Shown here: positions 39,326-54,342 of the stretch, in pieces | Layout: every line of letters begins with the position of its first letter | Numbering within the stretch: the stretch's first letter is position 1 | Assembly: GCA_031200235.1 (NCBI GenBank) | Contig: CP133595.1 | Location: 744,001 to 808,000 of the forward strand | Reading direction: 5' to 3' | DNA: 64,000 bases | Origin: Cuniculiplasma divulgatum | GTDB lineage: Archaea; Thermoplasmatota; Thermoplasmata; Thermoplasmatales; Thermoplasmataceae | Translations under genes and position numbers: made by a program | The notes under the pieces: model-generated | Database searches by the model: none | The model's input: only the letters and a program-made list of their open reading frames with translations | What the model was told of the DNA's origin: nothing

Positions 39326-39835
39326 TCACAGCGGCTCGCTGTCAATATATCCATTGGATCTGAGCACTTCTATTATGCCGCCTGACCTCACGATATTCAT
39401 CAACAGGTCTGGAATCCTGTTGAATTCTCTCACTGATCCGTCCTGTTCCCTTGTTACAGTGCAGTGCTGGAAGTCAACCTGTATGATATCACCCTCGGCG
39501 ATCCATTGCGTAATCCCGTCCATACGCAAAACCGGTAGCCCACAGTTAACGGCGTTTCTCATGAAAAGTCCGTTGACGGTTTCTGCCATCACCAGCACTA
39601 TACCGAGACCCACAAGATTTGCCGCTGCTGGTCGAGAAGAGCCCACCCCGAAATTCCGGCCTGCAACGATGATGTCACCCCTATTAACCTGGGAGGCCCA
39701 TCCGGGCCTGTTTGCCCACATTGTATACTTTGGCCTGTCTTTCTCCGGAAGCGTATAGCAAATGTGGGGATACATGAGGTCTGTGTTTATGTCGTCTCCA
39801 AAACCCCACACCCTTCCCCTGATCTTATCGTCCAT
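39326..39835 (-). CDS. lysU: Homoaconitase small subunit (LeuD/LysU family)
   Basis: 169 residues. Swivelling domain of the aconitase-type hydratase, with the motif NFGVGSSRPAAA near residue 60 that is diagnostic for the family, and the N-terminal GRVWGFGDDINTDLMYP. With LysT it isomerises homocitrate to homoisocitrate (or 2-isopropylmalate, if it also serves leucine synthesis). Its start is directly adjacent to the lysT stop. Confidence 0.9.
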   Translation of the reverse strand: MDDKIRGRVWGFGDDINTDLMYPHICYTLPEKDRPKYTMWANRPGWASQVNRGDIIVAGRNFGVGSSRPAAANLVGLGIVLVMAETVNGLFMRNAVNCGLPVLRMDGITQWIAEGDIIQVDFQHCTVTREQDGSVREFNRIPDLLMNIVRSGGIIEVLRSNGYIDSEPL

Positions 39836-41098
39836 CTATGAACCTCCAGGGATGCTGCTGGGGCTCACTATCTCACCTGCAACTGCCGAGGCCGCCACTG
39901 TGGCGGAGGATGCCATGTATATTCTGGCATCTCTGGAACCCATCCTTCCCTTGAAATTCCTGGTTGTTGATGTTATGGCAGTTTCTCCGTCAGCAAGGAG
40001 ACCCATGTGGCCACCCATGCATGATCCGCAGGTTGGATTGGTCACGATCCCTCCGGCCTTCACTATTGTTGGGATGTAGCCAAGTTCCATCCCCCTTAGA
40101 TAGATGGACTGGGTGGCAGGCGTCACAATCAGCCTTGTTCCTGGATGCACCTTTCTTCCCTTGAGAATCCTTGCAGCCACTTCCAGATCGGACAGTTTCC
40201 CGTTGGCACATGATCCGATGGTGCACTGGTCAACCTTGATTCCCTGTATGTCATCCACCGGCCTGGTATTCCCGGCAACAGAATCTGGTAGTGCGGCCAT
40301 GGGCACCACCTCGGACATATCAAGCTGGTATGCGCCTGCATAACTGGCAGATGGGTCAGGAGACACCGGGGAATATTCCTGAACTCCCCGTTCCTGAACA
40401 TAGGACCGCAGTACCTCATCACCTGGAAAGACGGCAAATTCCACACTCAGTTCAGCACACATGGTTGAGATAACCGTCCTCTGATCCATGTTCAGGGCCA
40501 TCACACCGTCTCCTGCAAATTCAATATTCATGTTGGGCATATCCCCAAGGTCACCAGCCATTTTCAGGAAAACATCCTTTGCTTCGGACATTCCTGAAAG
40601 TTTTCCAGAAAGGTCAACCTTAAGTGTTTCACCCACAGCAAACCACGTTTTTCCGGTGCACATGACCTGCATGAGTTCTGGCGTTCCAAGTCCTCTGCTC
40701 AGCATGTTGAATGCCCCGGCAGCCACAGAATGGGAATCTGTATTGGCAACAATCTGGCCGGGATAGAACCATCCTGACTCGGCGGCAAAGGCGTGAGCTA
40801 TTCCTCCAGACCCGTAGTCATAGAAATCATTCAGGTTCAGTCTCTTCACCAGCTTTCGTATCTTGGCAGTGCCATTGGCCATCTCCACGTTTGGCGCAGG
40901 TACAAAGTGATCGAAAACAACGCTGATCTTTGATGGGTCAAAGACCCTTGCCGGTGGATTCTGGATCAGTTCAGGATGCTGGCCCGCTATGTCAAGCAGG
41001 ATCACTCTGTCCACGGACACGGTTACTATGTCGCCCGGTTCCACCTTCCCTGAACTGTCCGAAGAATGTGAGGAAAGTATCTTCTCAGCAATATTCAG
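39836..41098 (-). CDS. lysT: Homoaconitase large subunit (LeuC/LysT family), CTG start proposed
   Basis: 420 residues with the proposed start. [4Fe-4S] hydratase: cluster Cys residues in TIGSCANGK and in PTCGSCMGGH, plus FDHFVPAPN near residue 60. The first ATG/GTG/TTG in frame is a GTG at 41044, but this cuts off a conserved stretch. Reading 18 codons further upstream gives IAEKILSSH, the normal LeuC/LysT N-terminus, and the only suitable start there is a CTG at 41098 that overlaps the lysK stop (CTGA). It is preceded by the purine-rich GGAGAGGG. An ATT start at 41092 is less likely. Confidence 0.85.
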   Translation of the reverse strand: MNIAEKILSSHSSDSSGKVEPGDIVTVSVDRVILLDIAGQHPELIQNPPARVFDPSKISVVFDHFVPAPNVEMANGTAKIRKLVKRLNLNDFYDYGSGGIAHAFAAESGWFYPGQIVANTDSHSVAAGAFNMLSRGLGTPELMQVMCTGKTWFAVGETLKVDLSGKLSGMSEAKDVFLKMAGDLGDMPNMNIEFAGDGVMALNMDQRTVISTMCAELSVEFAVFPGDEVLRSYVQERGVQEYSPVSPDPSASYAGAYQLDMSEVVPMAALPDSVAGNTRPVDDIQGIKVDQCTIGSCANGKLSDLEVAARILKGRKVHPGTRLIVTPATQSIYLRGMELGYIPTIVKAGGIVTNPTCGSCMGGHMGLLADGETAITSTTRNFKGRMGSRDARIYMASSATVAASAVAGEIVSPSSIPGGS

Positions 41099-42210
41099 GT
41101 AGTCCCTCTCCTCTTTTCACTGATCACCTGGCCTTCCTTTCGGCCTCGTTCCAGATTCAACAGTGCGTCTGCAACTATTTCGGCGCTTCTCCATACTTCC
41201 TCAAGCGATATTTCCTCCAGTTCCGTATGTGAAAGCTGAGGGTTGCCTGGCCCATAGGTCACGCACGGTATTTTCCATCTTGACCCAAGTATGTTCATAT
41301 CGCCGCTCCCGCTCTTGAATAGCAACTGCGCTTCACTTCCGGTGTTCTTTCTCACAGATTCCTTGAAGGCTGAGATCAGAGGCGTCTTCAGCCCTGAAAC
41401 ATAAGGTTCCACACTGCTTCTGATCATGAAAGATGGTTCAGAAGCGGTGGAGGATTTCACCAGGTCCAGTATTTCTGAAAGGACGTCATCCTGCTTTCTG
41501 GATGGAGGGTATCTTACATCAAGGGTCATCGCGGCATTTGAAGGGGTCATGTTGTCCGCCTCCCCTGCCCTTATGGATGTCAGCGCAGCTGAAACCTTTG
41601 AAAATTCCCTGTTCTTTCCAAGTTTATCCCTGACTGAATTCCATGCCTCCACGGCAGATTCCACAGCACTCTGGCCCAGCCAGGGAGCACTGGCATGCAC
41701 CTGCCCTGACCTGAATTCCATATCCAGAAGGATGCGCCCACGGTAGCCCACTGTTATGCCTGTTACTGCAGAGGGTTCGCCAAAAATGGCATAGTCTGAT
41801 CTGGGCTGGCTGGAGGCTACTTCAATAATGCCCTTGCCAGGTCCCTCCTCACCCACAGCAGCAATCATACGTATGGTTCCGCTGAATCCTCTCTGTTTCG
41901 CCATCGACACGCCAAACATCAGCGATACCAGTGAGGATTTTGCATCCGTTGCCCCCCTTCCATAAAGAGTGCCTCCATCCTCCCTCACAGGTAGCTGGCC
42001 GGGGACAGTGTCTATGTGCCCGCAGACAAGAATTTCCGGAGATCCGCCGCTGAAAATGGAAACACCATTACCGGCCCTGTCCACAAAGAATTCGTCTGCG
42101 CCCAGGCGCAACATTTCCCTTCCAAAGTATTCTACAGCCTTCTCCTCATTCCCTGTTGGAGAATATATATCCACAAGCTCTTTCACCACCCTGTCTGTGG
42201 GATGCGTCAC
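41095..42210 (-). CDS. lysK: [LysW]-lysine (or -ornithine) hydrolase
   Basis: 371 residues, M20-family zinc peptidase. Releases the finished amino acid from LysW. Metal-site motifs: CGHIDTVPG near residue 61, GRGATDAKSS, and AVGEEGPGKG near residue 115, the catalytic Glu pair. The penultimate C-terminal His (PQLSHTELEEISLEEV) is also present. Its stop overlaps the proposed CTG start of lysT; its start overlaps lysX2 by 4 bases. Confidence 0.9.
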   Translation of the reverse strand: MTHPTDRVVKELVDIYSPTGNEEKAVEYFGREMLRLGADEFFVDRAGNGVSIFSGGSPEILVCGHIDTVPGQLPVREDGGTLYGRGATDAKSSLVSLMFGVSMAKQRGFSGTIRMIAAVGEEGPGKGIIEVASSQPRSDYAIFGEPSAVTGITVGYRGRILLDMEFRSGQVHASAPWLGQSAVESAVEAWNSVRDKLGKNREFSKVSAALTSIRAGEADNMTPSNAAMTLDVRYPPSRKQDDVLSEILDLVKSSTASEPSFMIRSSVEPYVSGLKTPLISAFKESVRKNTGSEAQLLFKSGSGDMNILGSRWKIPCVTYGPGNPQLSHTELEEISLEEVWRSAEIVADALLNLERGRKEGQVISEKRRGTT

Positions 42211-43055
42211 CTGAGAACCTCCCTGACATAATCCATGATTTCGCTGGGAACATCCACCTGTGCTACCCTGACAGTGTTCTTGAACTCCGTAGTGCTGTTC
42301 ACCTCGTGTACCACATAGCCATTTTCAGTTTCCATGATGTCAACCCCGAAAACGCCTTTCCCAACACTTCTTGCCGCCCTTATGGATATGTCCTCAAGTT
42401 CCGGTGTGATGGGACATTTCTCGGCTCTACCGCCAATTGCCGTGTTGGTCCTCCAGTCATCGTCCGACTGGTATCTGTAGATTCCTCCGATGACCCTGTC
42501 CCCCACAACGAATGTTCTGATGTCCCTGGGCGGCCGTTTTACGAATTCCTGAAGATAGAAGATGGAATATAACGGGTACATGTATTCCCTGTCCTCCATT
42601 ACGGCCGATGCAGCCGTCCTGTCATTGAGAAGCGCAACCATCCTTCCCCAGCTCCCTGTAACAGGTTTCAGGACCGCCCTGCCTCCGAACTTGGAGGAAA
42701 ACTGCTTCATGGCTGTAGGGTAAGAGGCTGCCACTGAAGTCTTTGGAGTTGGCACGCCATTCTTCACCAGGGCAAGTGATGTCAGCATCTTGTTTCCCGC
42801 CACATCAATGGTGTTGAAGTCGTTTATGACCTTCTGCCCCTTGAACTCCAGATAGGCTGTTGAATGCAGGCCGCGATAGTAGGAAGTGCACCTCTGGAGA
42901 GTCACGGATCCGTATTCTCCAGGCAGTGGCGCATCAAGGTCCATATCCATGTCCTTGACATCCACCATGTTGATCTCCATGCCCCGGTCCTGGCCGGCCT
43001 TGAGCAATGCCTTTTCCTCCCATCTCACAAGATCATAAACCATTGAGATTTTCAT
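42207..43055 (-). CDS. lysX: LysX-family LysW ligase, copy 2 (main operon)
   Basis: 282 residues, ATP-grasp. Start MKISMVYDLVRWEEKALL, YRGLHSTAYL, VLKPVTGSWGRMVALL, WRTNTAIGGRAEKCP and VHEVNSTTEFKNT. Because it is embedded between lysJ and lysK with 4-base overlaps on both sides, I take it as the aminoadipate-specific ligase of lysine synthesis. Its paralogue at 34739 differs in the last motif (NGTMEF against NSTTEF) and may have another substrate. Confidence 0.9.
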   Translation of the reverse strand: MKISMVYDLVRWEEKALLKAGQDRGMEINMVDVKDMDMDLDAPLPGEYGSVTLQRCTSYYRGLHSTAYLEFKGQKVINDFNTIDVAGNKMLTSLALVKNGVPTPKTSVAASYPTAMKQFSSKFGGRAVLKPVTGSWGRMVALLNDRTAASAVMEDREYMYPLYSIFYLQEFVKRPPRDIRTFVVGDRVIGGIYRYQSDDDWRTNTAIGGRAEKCPITPELEDISIRAARSVGKGVFGVDIMETENGYVVHEVNSTTEFKNTVRVAQVDVPSEIMDYVREVLR

Positions 43056-44257
43056 TCTGCCCCACTCCGCTTTAGCTGGCCATCAAGAGCCCCCTTTATT
43101 TCCACGATGGCCTCATCCACCTGTTCCCTTGTGAGGATGTAGGGCGGAAGCATCCTTATGATGTTGATACCGGAGTACAGGGTTATGACGCCCCTGTCCA
43201 GAAGATTCATCAGAACTGGCAGAAACCTGATTCTAAGCTCAAGGGCAAGCATCATGCCTATCCCTCTGGCATGGCTAACCAGACGATGGTTTCCCAGATC
43301 CTCCTGCATCCTTTCCAGAAAGTATTTTCCAGTATCCCCTGCCTTCTCCACGTATCCGCTCCTGAGCCGGCCTATAACTGCACTTCCTGCGGCACAGGCC
43401 AGCGGGTTGCCTCCTGTTGTTGAACTCTGCTCCCCTATTTCAAGGGCATCCACGAACTCGCTCCTCCCCACTGTAACGCCCATGGGGATTCCTCCACCTA
43501 TGCCCTTTCCTACCGTCATGATGTCCGGTGTTATGCCCCAGTGCTCGTGGGCCCACATCTTTCCGGTCCTTCCCAGGCCTGACTGAATCTCATCCATGAT
43601 GAGAAGCGTTCCCGATGCCTCTGTCATTTCTCTCACTTCCTTAAGATACTGGTCTCCAGGAAGGTTTATTCCGCCCTCCCCCTGAACCGGCTCCAAAAAG
43701 ACGGCTGCCACGTCGAAGGACGAAAGGGCTTTCCTGAGCATTTCTGCATCGCCAAATTTCACAAATTCAACATCGCCAACAAGAAGATCCTGGAACGATT
43801 TCCTGTATTTTGAGGAATGCGTGACCGAGAGTGATCCCAGTGTCTTTCCGTGGTATCCCCTTTCCATGCTTATCATCCTGTGTCTCCTGGTGGACTTCAC
43901 TGCAATTTTTATTGCGGCCTCAACAGCCTCGGTTCCGCTATTGGAAAGAAAAGCCCGGTTAAGCCCCCTGGGCGCTATTGACATGAAGTCCTTTAGAAAT
44001 TCAGCTCTTGCAGGGCTGTAAACCGAGGCATGAGTTATGTATACCTTCTCCATCTGCTGCATTATGGCTTCCTTGATTTTCTCATCAGAGTGTCCAAGGA
44101 TGGCAACCCCATAGCCGCTCATGAGATCCAGATACTCCTTACCGTCCAGATCCCATATGTTTACGCCCTTGGCCCTGGCGGCCAGTACCGGTATCTTCTG
44201 GTAGGTTCCCGCCAGGAATTCATCCTCTATCTTCTGGTAATATCCATTATCCATCAT
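43052..44257 (-). CDS. lysJ: [LysW]-aminoadipate semialdehyde aminotransferase
   Basis: 401 residues, class III PLP aminotransferase. The PLP region reads LLIMDEIQSGLGRTGKMWAHE and the Schiff-base lysine lies in MTVGKGIGGGIP (about residue 248). Converts LysW-bound semialdehyde to LysW-lysine (or to LysW-ornithine), with glutamate as donor. Single copy in the window, so it would have to serve both branches if two exist. Confidence 0.9.
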   Translation of the reverse strand: MMDNGYYQKIEDEFLAGTYQKIPVLAARAKGVNIWDLDGKEYLDLMSGYGVAILGHSDEKIKEAIMQQMEKVYITHASVYSPARAEFLKDFMSIAPRGLNRAFLSNSGTEAVEAAIKIAVKSTRRHRMISMERGYHGKTLGSLSVTHSSKYRKSFQDLLVGDVEFVKFGDAEMLRKALSSFDVAAVFLEPVQGEGGINLPGDQYLKEVREMTEASGTLLIMDEIQSGLGRTGKMWAHEHWGITPDIMTVGKGIGGGIPMGVTVGRSEFVDALEIGEQSSTTGGNPLACAAGSAVIGRLRSGYVEKAGDTGKYFLERMQEDLGNHRLVSHARGIGMMLALELRIRFLPVLMNLLDRGVITLYSGINIIRMLPPYILTREQVDEAIVEIKGALDGQLKRSGAE

Positions 44258-45063
44258 TTTTCAATCACCGTTTTCATTTTTCCCTGAACTGCATTTTCAA
44301 GCGGGTTTGATATGGAACCGGAACTGATGACGACCCTTCCGGCTCCACTGGCCAGTGCCTCCCTTGCTGCAATCAGTTTCTTATCCATTCCGTTTCCCAC
44401 ACCCCGTATGGCTTCATCCAGTTCCGTCCCTGCAATATGCGGAACCAGTGAATCTTCACGCATCACACCAGTAACATTTGTCAAAAGAACAAGCAGATCC
44501 GCCTTCAGAGAACCTGCTATTGCCGCCGCAGCCCTGTCTCCATCGACATTGAGCGCCTCCCCGTCTTTGCTGACTGCTATTGGAGCTATGACCGGCAACT
44601 GGCCAAGATCCATAAGGCCATTCAGGAAGGCCGAATTGACCTCTGTTATCCTCCCTGTGTAGCCACCATCTACAAACATGGGACGCCCGTTCCCGCTCAG
44701 TATCTTCAATCGGCTCTTGCGTTCAGCAACCATCAATCCTGCATCGATACCGGTGATGCCCACCGAATTTCTGCCGTATTTTCTCAGGGCAAGAACAATA
44801 TCGGTGTTTATCCTGCCTTTCATCGCCATAAGAAAGACCTCCATTGTTTGTGCATCCGTATACCTGCTCCTTACTCCGTCAGGAGATGTGACAAATCTGG
44901 GTTCAATGCCAAGCCTCATGGTCAGGTCAGTTACCGCCGGCCCACCGCCATGGACAAGAACAATCCGGTCATTCTCATAATATGCAATTTCCTTTATGAG
45001 AGAATCTGGAACTCCGCTGCTGGCAATGCTTCCACCAACCTTCACCACTGTGACCATGATCAC
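44254..45063 (-). CDS. lysZ: [LysW]-aminoadipate/glutamate kinase
   Basis: 269 residues, amino acid kinase family (related to ArgB). N-terminal VVKVGGSIAS, LVHGGGPAVTDL near residue 35, LNVDGDRAAAAIAGSLKADLLVLLTNVTGV near 170, and GNGMDKKLIAA. It phosphorylates the side carboxyl of the amino acid held on LysW. Overlaps both neighbours by 4 bases. Confidence 0.92.
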   Translation of the reverse strand: MIMVTVVKVGGSIASSGVPDSLIKEIAYYENDRIVLVHGGGPAVTDLTMRLGIEPRFVTSPDGVRSRYTDAQTMEVFLMAMKGRINTDIVLALRKYGRNSVGITGIDAGLMVAERKSRLKILSGNGRPMFVDGGYTGRITEVNSAFLNGLMDLGQLPVIAPIAVSKDGEALNVDGDRAAAAIAGSLKADLLVLLTNVTGVMREDSLVPHIAGTELDEAIRGVGNGMDKKLIAAREALASGAGRVVISSGSISNPLENAVQGKMKTVIEK

Positions 45064-46121
45064 ACCAGCCTGAGAGGGGCAGAATTGAGGCCTGCATTTT
45101 CAGGGTATCCCATCATTATGTTCATTGACTGGATTGCATTACCTGCTGCACCCTTGATCAGGTTATCAATTGCTCCTATGGCAACAACTCTGTTCACGTG
45201 CCTGTCAATTGCAAATCCCAGGTCCACGAAATTCGATCCGATTACCAGCTTTGGATCCGGGTACCTGAAGAGGCCATTGGGATCCATCATGAACCTTATG
45301 AATGGCTCGTTTCGGTACATGGAGCGATAAGCCTTCCATAAATCAGTTTCCGCGGGCCTGTGTTCTGTAAATATGCTTGATGTTGTCAGTATGCCCCTCA
45401 CCATATTCACCGAATGTGCAGACATGGTAACTGTCACCCGTTTTTCGGCAGCAATTGATAATTCCTGCTCAATTTCACCTATATGCCTGTGATCCGAGGG
45501 GCTGTAAATCCTCACTGAATTAAATCTCTCAGAAAAATGGGTTGCGGACGTGGATTTGTTGCCAGACCCAGATGATCCTATCTTTGCATCTATTACGGTG
45601 ATACCGGCCAGCAATCCGGATTTTGCCAGTGGTGCCAGGCTGTATATGGATGAGCTTGCAATGCAGCCGGGAACAGCGATCAGCCTTGAATTGCGTATCT
45701 CGTCCCTGTGAAGTTCAGGCATACCATAGGTGAACTTCTGCAGGAGATCCGGAGCAGGATGTTCCCAACCGTACCATACTGGATACTGGGAGCTATCCTT
45801 CAGCCTGAAATCAGCGCTCATGTCTATGATCCTTGTGCCTGTTTCAACAAGCTGCGGTGTTATCTTCACGGATGATCCATGTGGAACTGCCAGAAACAGA
45901 ATGTCCACCTTTGCTGCAACGTCCATTGGCGTTTCATCGGTGAACTTCAGGTTCGTGTAACCCTTCAGGTTGGGATGAACCCTGGCGATGTATTCCCCAG
46001 CATTGTGCTTTGATGTGGCTGCGGTAATTTCAACTTCGGGATGATTCAGCAGGAGCCGGAGGATTTCTCCGCCTGTGTATCCGGATGCGCCGATAATGCC
46101 TACTTTAGACAAAAATATCAA
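45060..46121 (-). CDS. lysY: [LysW]-aminoadipate/glutamyl phosphate reductase
   Basis: 353 residues, ArgC-like NADPH-dependent reductase. Rossmann start VGIIGASGYTGGEILRLL, catalytic Cys in VPGCIASSSIY near residue 150, and a His in the second half (SAHSVNMVRGI). It follows lysW2 by 36 bases and is the second gene of the operon. Its start MIFLSKVG could also be one of the next codons. Confidence 0.92.
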   Translation of the reverse strand: MIFLSKVGIIGASGYTGGEILRLLLNHPEVEITAATSKHNAGEYIARVHPNLKGYTNLKFTDETPMDVAAKVDILFLAVPHGSSVKITPQLVETGTRIIDMSADFRLKDSSQYPVWYGWEHPAPDLLQKFTYGMPELHRDEIRNSRLIAVPGCIASSSIYSLAPLAKSGLLAGITVIDAKIGSSGSGNKSTSATHFSERFNSVRIYSPSDHRHIGEIEQELSIAAEKRVTVTMSAHSVNMVRGILTTSSIFTEHRPAETDLWKAYRSMYRNEPFIRFMMDPNGLFRYPDPKLVIGSNFVDLGFAIDRHVNRVVAIGAIDNLIKGAAGNAIQSMNIMMGYPENAGLNSAPLRLV

Positions 46122-49548: not shown

Positions 49549-49605
49549 GGTGGAGCTCTGCAAGGGCGCGGATATTTCAATCAAGCGATATTCTGGCTGG
49601 GAATC

Positions 49606-50721: not shown

Positions 50722-51639
50722 ATGAAGGACATCGGTCCCACGCAAACACAGCTTGAGAAGCAGGCCCGGAATCTCCTTGGAGGTCTCAGCATAATAACAA
50801 CAGTGGATCAACTCCTACCGCAGATGAGAAAGTAATCCGGCACTCTAGGGGACTATTCTGGTTTCAATTCACTGCTCAGAGGGATGCAGGGTCCAAATGC
50901 TACCATCGTCAGGTCTAGGAACGAGTGGAAGTATTTCGGTCGGGAAGTGAATGATGGTGCAATCCCAATAAGTGTGCTCTATCCTGTGGGAGAAGCACAC
51001 AAGGATGGCCCTAGAGAAGTGAAGGACTGTATTGAGAAGAAAAGATTTGAAGGTCTTAGTGATGAAGCCCTTGAGTAAATTGTCAGGAAGAAATTCAACC
51101 TCACTGGTGGTGGTTTTACCAAGGTATAAAGCACCGGAAAGGTATATTACTTCTCACAGACCACACCCATTCCTGGAAAAGCAAAGCCGATTGAGGCGGA
51201 TGTAAAGGCGACAACCCTTTACAACACTCTGAAAAAGATCGCAAAGGAGCATTACGAGGTTGAGGAATCTCCAATCAATAATGGTGCAAGAGGATATACA
51301 GCACATTCAGGGGAAGGCCAGAAGATAGTTGTGATGAAGATACTAGGAGAGGATGTGAATGTCCTCCATACCCTGATACATGAGATGTCCCATGCTCGGC
51401 TTGAATATCTCTACAGGAAAGAACTTCCAAGAGGCCTTGCTGAATCTGAGGCAGAATTGTCAACATACCTTGTAGGAGCGCACTTTGGCTTTGACTTCAG
51501 AGAGGATTCTTCAGCATACATCAAGGGATGGCTTGATGATGCTAAAAAGGCGGGAAAAGGACTAGGAAAGGAGAACCTTGACAGGGTTCTGAACAATGCA
51601 AGGTGGCTGATAAACGAAATATTTAACAAATTATCTTAA
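50722..51639 (+). pseudogene. ArdC-like zinc metalloprotease gene with three in-frame TAA codons
   Basis: One single frame runs from ATG 50722 to the stop at 51637-51639 (305 codons), interrupted by TAA at 50833, 51076 and 51127, with no frameshift. The N-terminal part (ATIVRSRNEWKYFGREVNDGAIPISVLYP, first residues through the G-x-x-x-x-P turn) fits the ArdC ssDNA-binding domain, and the C-terminal part has the zincin motif HEMSHARLEYL (HExxH) and a downstream ESEAELSTYL. Such proteins protect incoming plasmids from restriction. It is most likely a recently inactivated gene of a mobile element. The last uninterrupted piece, from ATG 51331, still codes for 102 residues with the metal site. Confidence 0.7.
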
Positions 51640-53403: not shown

Positions 53404-53610
53404 AAACAGAATCACAGGTTTTACTGCGTACGAATGCGAAGAGCTTCTAGGCGCTTTTGTTTATTTCTTGTTAACTCCTGTTGTAAAACTTAACGGGGCT
53501 TAAATATTCTTCAATATGATTAACAGAGCAAGGGGTCTCGGATCAAACACAGCACAGCAAAAGAGATATTTTATATAATTAAACCTTGAATGTAGTGAAG
53601 AGGTATAAAT

Positions 53611-54342
53611 CTGGCAAAGTCAGTATATAAAATTTACACTGTCGATGTGATTCCATTTTTTGTTATAGTGGTGTTCTTCATTGTCGGCCTTTTAGTTAGA
53701 ATATTTTTTGGAAATGCAGTGTTGTCTCTTGCTAACTCCGTGAATACACCCTGGGGAATAATCACGTCTAACTTTGTCTTTGACGGCTTCCAGAACATGG
53801 AAGCTATGCTTCTATTTCTAGTATTTCTATATCTTACAAGCGTGTCATTCAAAATTAAACTTAGAAATGGAAGATACATAGCCACATTAGTAAGTATGTT
53901 CGCAGGAGGCATTATTGCGAACTTTTTGTGGTTTTATGAGATGTTTAGAAGTGGGAGCACTGTTACCAGTGCCGGCCAGTCAGGGGTTGTCTATGCATTC
54001 TGGGGCGCATGTTTTTCCCTGTTCCTCTTCGATACCATAATTATCATAATCGGCAAAGGAGCCAAATTAATCAGAAGAAATTCCTCTCAAATTGGGGCAC
54101 TTAAGTCAAGCTCGAAGAGGTTGAGATGGATAGGAGGTGCCTGCTCTGTTGTGTTCTCAATAATCGTATTGGCGGATTTGTATGATGGACAGAGAGCATT
54201 TTTTTCAGAGCTTCCTCACATTAACTATTTCGTACATATAGCAGCATTTTTTAGTGGAGTGTTAATTTGTGCTTTCATTTACTTGCCCATATTAATTAGA
54301 AACATACTCAAAGTTAAGCCCATTACGACCGTTCAGTTATAG
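53611..54342 (+). CDS. Membrane protein, five helices, possible CTG start
   Basis: About 243 residues. Hydrophobic helices near residues 14-35, 55-75, 85-105, 120-140, then two more near 170-235 (the exact number is uncertain). No family recognised. The first standard start is GTG 53647, but GAGGT lies 6 bases before an in-frame CTG at 53611 (reading AKSVYKIYTVDVIPFF), which would add a short basic N-terminus. The choice is uncertain. A TATA-like stretch lies near 53570. Confidence 0.55.
   Translation: MAKSVYKIYTVDVIPFFVIVVFFIVGLLVRIFFGNAVLSLANSVNTPWGIITSNFVFDGFQNMEAMLLFLVFLYLTSVSFKIKLRNGRYIATLVSMFAGGIIANFLWFYEMFRSGSTVTSAGQSGVVYAFWGACFSLFLFDTIIIIIGKGAKLIRRNSSQIGALKSSSKRLRWIGGACSVVFSIIVLADLYDGQRAFFSELPHINYFVHIAAFFSGVLICAFIYLPILIRNILKVKPITTVQL

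Follow-up and report, generated by a model that had tools for sequence, protein, structure and literature searches.

The lysine gene row

The window analysed here, a stretch of 64,000 nucleotides from the Cuniculiplasma divulgatum genome (2.0 Mb in a single contig; G000 below), carries on its minus strand a row of genes that family models assign to lysY, lysZ, a lysJ-like gene, lysX, lysK, lysT and lysU, followed by homoisocitrate-dehydrogenase-like and homocitrate-synthase genes; the score of the dehydrogenase-like gene is below the cut-off of its best model. The part of the row from lysY to lysU reads as follows:

45060..46121, minus strand: lysY (argC-like), TTG start at 46121 or 46112; TIGR01850 above cut-off
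44254..45063, minus strand: lysZ, starting at GTG 45063 in a GTGA or at ATG 45057, which has the better Shine-Dalgarno (SD) sequence; NF010662 above cut-off
43052..44257, minus strand: lysJ-like aminotransferase, ATG start in an ATGA; best model TIGR00707, below cut-off
42207..43055, minus strand: lysX, ATG start in an ATGA; TIGR02144 above cut-off
41095..42210, minus strand: lysK, [LysW]-lysine hydrolase-like, GTG start; TIGR01902 above cut-off, the better-scoring NF003367 below its own cut-off
39836..41098, minus strand: lysT, homoaconitase/isopropylmalate dehydratase large-subunit family, 420 residues if read from CTG
39326..39835, minus strand: lysU, small subunit, ATG directly after the lysT TAG; TIGR02087 above cut-off

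LysT scores 428 bits against NF001614 (cut-off 385) and 401.2 against TIGR01343 (cut-off 385.7), matches PF00330, and has homologs of known structure (PDB 4nqy, 4kp1 and 4kp2). The gene context suggests that the protein may act as a homoaconitase. In another genome of the same genus (G003; locus L111, G003:C4:401832-406831), the argC-like gene, lysZ, lysJ, lysX and lysK are present, lysX having a TTG start in a 4-nt overlap, and no lysT follows lysK; hence the lysTU part of the row is not universal in the genus.

The junction of lysK and lysT

The features at the junction of lysK and lysT are listed below in the direction of reading:

41117..41119, minus strand: in-frame stop (TGA) at the upstream limit of the lysT frame (frame reading)
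41104..41113, minus strand: SD-like GAGGAGAGGG, 5 nt before CTG; -8.2 kcal/mol with the genome's own anti-SD
41096..41098, minus strand: CTG, proposed lysT start; aligned with ATG or TTG in orthologs, and also CTG in the sister species
41095..41097, minus strand: TGA, lysK stop (frame reading)
41090..41092, minus strand: ATT, rival non-standard start two codons past CTG; the SD of CTG lies at spacing 11
41042..41044, minus strand: GTG, first standard in-frame start, residue 19; SD absent at the usual spacing

From the TGA at 41119-41117 the lysT frame runs through AAA GAG GAG AGG GAC TAC to the CTG at 41098-41096, and continues as CTG AAT ATT GCT GAG AAG ATA CTT TCC TCA CAT ... AAG GTG (41044). 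Reading the frame back to this TGA confirmed the statement of the initial annotation that no ATG, GTG or TTG precedes GTG 41044, and there is consequently no in-frame AUG, GUG or UUG able to give the full conserved LysT. The same annotation had placed the start at a CTG that overlaps the lysK stop as CTGA with an SD just before it, and this arrangement is indeed found: the lysK TGA (41097-41095) shares its TG with the CTG to give CTGA at 41098-41095, a 4-nt start/stop overlap on one strand (a -4 overlap), and GAGGAGAGGG lies 5 nt upstream. The C of this CTG is also the third base of ACC (Thr), the final sense codon of lysK. Replacement of that codon by ACA, ACG or ACT would give ATGA, GTGA or TTGA and leave LysK unchanged; the overlap therefore does not force a CTG, because the C occupies a free third position.

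Pairing energies were computed against the 3' end of the genome's own 16S rRNA, GGATCACCTCCT. The SD of the lysT CTG (-8.2 kcal/mol, spacing 5 nt) has the same spacing as those of lysJ (-8.0), lysX (-7.2), lysK (-11.2) and lysU (-10.5 kcal/mol), while the pattern is missing in lysY (-2.4 or -4.9), the GTG of lysZ (-4.9 at 0 nt) and the dehydrogenase gene (-5.6 at 13 nt). Among random CTGA sites, 34 of 3000 have an SD of -8.2 kcal/mol or stronger at 3-7 nt; among random positions from 20 sampled stretches of the genome, 69 of 4000 do. The geometry had been described as that of the ATGA overlaps at the other junctions of the row, which holds for lysZ/lysJ and lysJ/lysX only: lysX/lysK and lysY/lysZ are GTGA, though lysZ also has the better-placed ATG 45057 to choose, and lysT and lysU do not overlap, the TAG of the one being directly followed by the ATG of the other. 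The start of lysZ may be ATG 45057 (SD -7.6 kcal/mol at 4 nt) and not GTG 45063.

A gene caller restricted to ATG, GTG and TTG would pick GTG 41044, the first standard start, and LysT would then be shorter by the 18 N-terminal residues of its family. This start pairs with the 16S rRNA at -4.0 kcal/mol with a spacing of 1, that is, without an SD at the usual distance, and it would leave 50 nt of intergenic sequence in an otherwise tightly packed row. Moreover, the residues ahead of it are coding-like and include positions that are invariant in the orthologs described below, all of which makes GTG 41044 quite improbable as the real start. The other candidate within the frame is ATT 41092, ATT being a known rare start codon. 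It is preceded by the same SD as the CTG, but at 11 nt, compared with 5 nt in lysJ, lysX, lysK and lysU; nor does it overlap the lysK stop.

LysT start codons in the Thermoplasmatales

The start of LysT can be traced through 25 rows of an alignment from Thermoplasmatales, comprising 24 matches at E 1e-110 or better and one further sequence, UBA582 (L085), with weaker aconitase-family matches left out. Matches at this level (24 in total) occur in 23 of 77 family genomes; an aconitase superfamily match of some kind is present in 58 of 61 genomes. Named relatives with at least 53% identity are mostly Thermoplasmata metagenome genomes, in addition to Ferroplasma acidarmanus and Acidiplasma aeolicum. 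Other named loci, most of them apparently from the same genomes, were left uncounted, as was L086 (filed as Marsarchaeota), which has ATG at the aligned place. The gene in L008 (from G011) is interrupted by a stop, and 286 of its residues were used for the tree; the distant rows L074, L075, L077 and L083 served as outgroup only.

The initial annotation had proposed to check whether related genomes carry an ATG or GTG here, and standard starts are indeed common: the codon aligned with CTG 41098 is ATG in 19 of the 25 rows, TTG in three (G035, G064 and G089) and CTG in three (G000, G001 and UBA582). Most LysT orthologs thus have an accepted start codon at this very position, and Asn follows it directly in 25/25 rows. 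Residues N2, E5, K6, I7, H11 and S12 are invariant in six of six aligned orthologs and would all be lost by a start at GTG 41044; across the 25 rows, position 6 differs in L096 only and position 12 in L091 only. The alignments with PDB 4nqy and 4kp1 begin at residue 2 and that with 4kp2 at residue 4. Since the first two align from residue 2, the first 18 residues of LysT are family sequence, in agreement with the earlier claim that the family N-terminus is encoded ahead of GTG 41044; residues 2-18 are conserved in the family.

For ATT 41092 this comparison cuts both ways. An ATG occupies the codon aligned with it in UBA582, G064 and G011, yet a start at ATT would leave Asn2 untranslated, although this residue is present in every row, and with the unusual SD spacing given above we consider initiation at ATT hardly likely. 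The choice of starts differs among the relatives: in G064 and UBA582 an ATG is found two codons after the aligned start, and still further upstream there are standard starts in G064 and G089. Of the rows with CTG, G000 and G001 are the only ones without a standard start to choose. The CTG of UBA582 is at most a possible further start: with its later ATG this gene does not need it, although the SD lies 4 nt from the CTG and 10 nt from the ATG and hence fits the CTG better.

In the LysT tree, G000 and G001 group with G064 (TTG) and UBA582 (CTG) with weak support (85/78), and the row of UBA582 fills only 36% of the alignment columns. One origin of the CTG or two are therefore both possible.

Conservation in the sister species

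The sister species G001, which was assembled separately, keeps the CTGA and has GGGGAGAGGG as SD; around the lysK/lysT junction the two genomes differ in 8 of 231 columns. A sequencing error at 41098, named in the initial annotation as grounds for refuting a CTG start, is very unlikely since the same CTGA recurs in this separate assembly, the G001 contig itself having a low coverage of about 2.6. Between the two species 24 codons of lysT differ synonymously and 2 nonsynonymously, which indicates that the gene is not decaying; for lysK the numbers are 41 and 13. Codons 1-18 of lysT contribute 2 synonymous and 1 nonsynonymous difference, numbers too small to be judged separately. One might still think of a wrong base call or of a gene that has only lately died, as just one base, C for A, makes the difference. 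With the CTGA present in both assemblies and a full-length lysT under purifying selection, however, such an explanation is scarcely credible. The retention of CTG in two such close species says little about selection on the codon itself, because only 8-15% of the fourfold sites in lysX, lysK and lysT differ between them.

Another conceivable route to LysT is a fusion with LysK, made by -1 frameshifting of the ribosome ahead of the lysK stop. The lysT gene does lie in the -1 frame, which is open for six codons before the CTG, and in G001 the sequence A AAG GGG fits a slippery heptamer. The corresponding A AAG AGG of G000 does not fit, so the heptamer is not conserved between the two species; moreover, lysK and lysT are separated by a gap in relatives such as G064, and lysT has its own ATG in 19 of the 25 rows. 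We regard a fusion of this kind as extremely unlikely.

At the level of sequence, the position and frame of the lysT start, its conservation, its SD and the selection on the gene are well established. The SD, the conserved N-terminus and the purifying selection favour CTG over GTG 41044 and, with the ortholog starts, support the proposal of the initial annotation that lysT starts at the CTG within the lysK stop. Very probably, lysT is an intact gene that is translated from CTG 41098, presumably by a restart after lysK.

Search for CTG starts elsewhere in the genome

General use of CTG as a start was surveyed in the window and in 20 stretches of 20 kb, together about 23% of the genome. In this sample 382 genes were called with a simple codon model made for this analysis. 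The coding score of lysT upstream of its first standard start is 4.8 over 24 codons, the second highest among the 382 genes (highest 12.0, at 51331; third 2.9). The top-scoring frame, at 51130-51639 on the plus strand of the window, has 67 coding-like codons before GTG 51331, no start codon and no Pfam match, and seems to be part of a longer gene.

Among same-strand gene pairs with an upstream TGA that place an NTG in an open frame (n=40), the base before TG is A in 22, G in 8, T in 5 and C in 5, while in the remaining same-strand TGA pairs (n=108) it is C in 49, G in 27, A in 23 and T in 9. CTGA is accordingly depleted where its CTG would serve as start (5/40 vs 49/108; Fisher p 2e-4). Of these five CTGA cases, three are CTGATG, with ATG as the next codon, and the other two belong to an agmatinase gene and to lysT; four of the five have a better explanation than a CTG start, lysT being the fifth. 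Upstream of the first standard start, an SD precedes 4 of 63 CTG codons, compared with 172 of 3421 for all non-standard codons including CTG, 60 of 253 for ATG, 13 of 67 for TTG and 3 of 62 for GTG (obtained by subtraction); this test is weak, since GTG fails as a positive control. We therefore rejected a general use of CTG starts, as neither SD-preceded nor stop-overlapping sites are enriched in the roughly 23% of the genome sampled, with the SD part of the argument being weak. On this evidence, a CTG start is an exception in this genome and not a habit.

A CTG with an SD at 49558 (plus strand) was set aside because of an ATG 16 codons later. One further site in the window had been pointed out by the initial annotation as a second possible CTG start:

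53611..53613, plus strand: second possible CTG start, SD -7.2 kcal/mol at 5 nt; gene of an accessory protein, frame open at 53599-54339

The site and its SD exist as described, and the standard start at GTG 53647 has an SD of only -0.4 kcal/mol. Distant homologs of the protein are found in only two of 60 relatives. In one (L135, from G060) an ATG aligns with CTG 53611 and the residues IYTV just before GTG 53647 are common to both sequences, in a gapped part of the alignment; in the other (L134, from G009) the alignment begins only after GTG 53647. Initiation at CTG 53611 is thus plausible on these comparisons, the case being a thin one. The protein encoded at 53599-54339 (plus strand) has no Pfam match, and its GQSG motif recalls, in our judgement, rhomboid proteases.

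The agmatinase junction

The agmatinase gene (Arginase family) lies at L035:4356 on the minus strand (G000:C1:~314356), with the loci of relatives at L113-L169, and is overlapped by a gene which we take to be aIF5A from its C-terminal sequence. An agmatinase hit is present in 68 of 77 family genomes; loci were available for 49 and gave 48 rows, G001 being dropped as identical to G002. These two genomes (L114 and L115), although listed as different species of the genus, are identical over 400 bases around the agmatinase core. The stop of the aIF5A-like gene falls at the same place of the agmatinase frame in 20 of 20 genomes.

In this genome the agmatinase junction is CTGA, but a TTG with GGAGGT is found 13 codons upstream. 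A TTG 34 codons before the core motif occurs in 37 of the 49 genomes, including this one; where the bases ahead of this TTG were compared, they contain an SD resembling GGAGGT. Seven genomes have a plain ATG right at the upstream stop (G003, G022, G013, G029, G078, G080 and G082). In nine of 49 genomes, all drafts, the open agmatinase frame upstream of the core contains no ATG, GTG or TTG (G005, G007, G014, G017, G023, G033, G091, G097 and G100). Seven of the nine have a CTG at the place of the TTG, at the upstream stop or at both, as in G017; in G007 and G100 the TTG place is followed by an in-frame stop, and no NTG codon precedes the core. The SD and the CTG or TTG may here be by-products, because the coding of the upstream gene dictates the sequence.

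Taken together, lysT and agmatinase could represent two cases of a relaxed start identity in this archaeal family, in which ribosomes positioned by a stop codon and an SD would restart on CUG, and perhaps on CUA or UUA, besides AUG, GUG and UUG, wherever a start overlaps or adjoins the preceding stop. We regard this generalisation as doubtful.

A proposed restart on CUG and comparison with known systems

For lysT we suggest that a ribosome finishing lysK would be held on or next to the CUG by the pairing of GAGGAGAGGG with the 16S rRNA. It would then restart there with initiator Met-tRNA, by termination-reinitiation, to yield MNIAEKILSSH... of 420 residues. The CUG is probably read by the initiator tRNA in this way; we infer that translation of lysT is coupled to that of lysK and less efficient than from an ATG. 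A one-base change most likely turned an ATG or TTG at this place into the CTG, in the ancestor of G000 and G001 or somewhat earlier.

To our knowledge, few CUG starts of prokaryotes have evidence beyond their annotation. The lysT start can be followed through 25 rows and is CTG in two species, and its overlap with a stop codon makes coupling testable by a few point changes. Gene callers limited to ATG, GTG and TTG would trim 18 conserved residues from LysT. Among the titles and abstracts searched, which cover part of the literature, we found no description of an archaeal CUG start, and the term CUG did not occur in several archaeal or prokaryotic papers examined for it.

In family matches and gene order the row resembles the LysW-type lysine row (lysYZJXK and lysTU with homoisocitrate dehydrogenase and homocitrate synthase), from which it departs only in the start codon of lysT. 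Reinitiation at non-canonical starts is described for a eukaryotic expression system (PMC4648390), and offers an analogy only. In archaea, aIF1 counteracts non-canonical starts (PMC6237735), which fits the rarity of CUG starts. The -4 overlap is the commonest one in archaea and bacteria, and overlapping gene pairs are reported to be tightly coupled in translation (PMC10666635). The lysK/lysT junction shares with these pairs the common bases of start and stop on the same strand. It differs in its CTGA: the overlap is given there as ATGA or GTGA, with no mention of CTGA, CTG or CUG in that text, and the coupling of lysK and lysT is our own suggestion.

Initiation at CUG is already known as a very rare event, and the lysT CTG appears to be a well-supported further case. 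Belinky, Rogozin and Koonin (2017, PMC5622118) counted switches to CUG from 2 of 61,358 ancestral AUG, 1 of 5,080 GUG and 1 of 2,468 UUG starts. As in those rare cases, a near-cognate NTG would have replaced ATG or TTG at a conserved position in lysT. In contrast to them, the lysT CUG is common to two species, lies inside the preceding stop codon, and belongs to a biosynthetic gene of the Thermoplasmatales.
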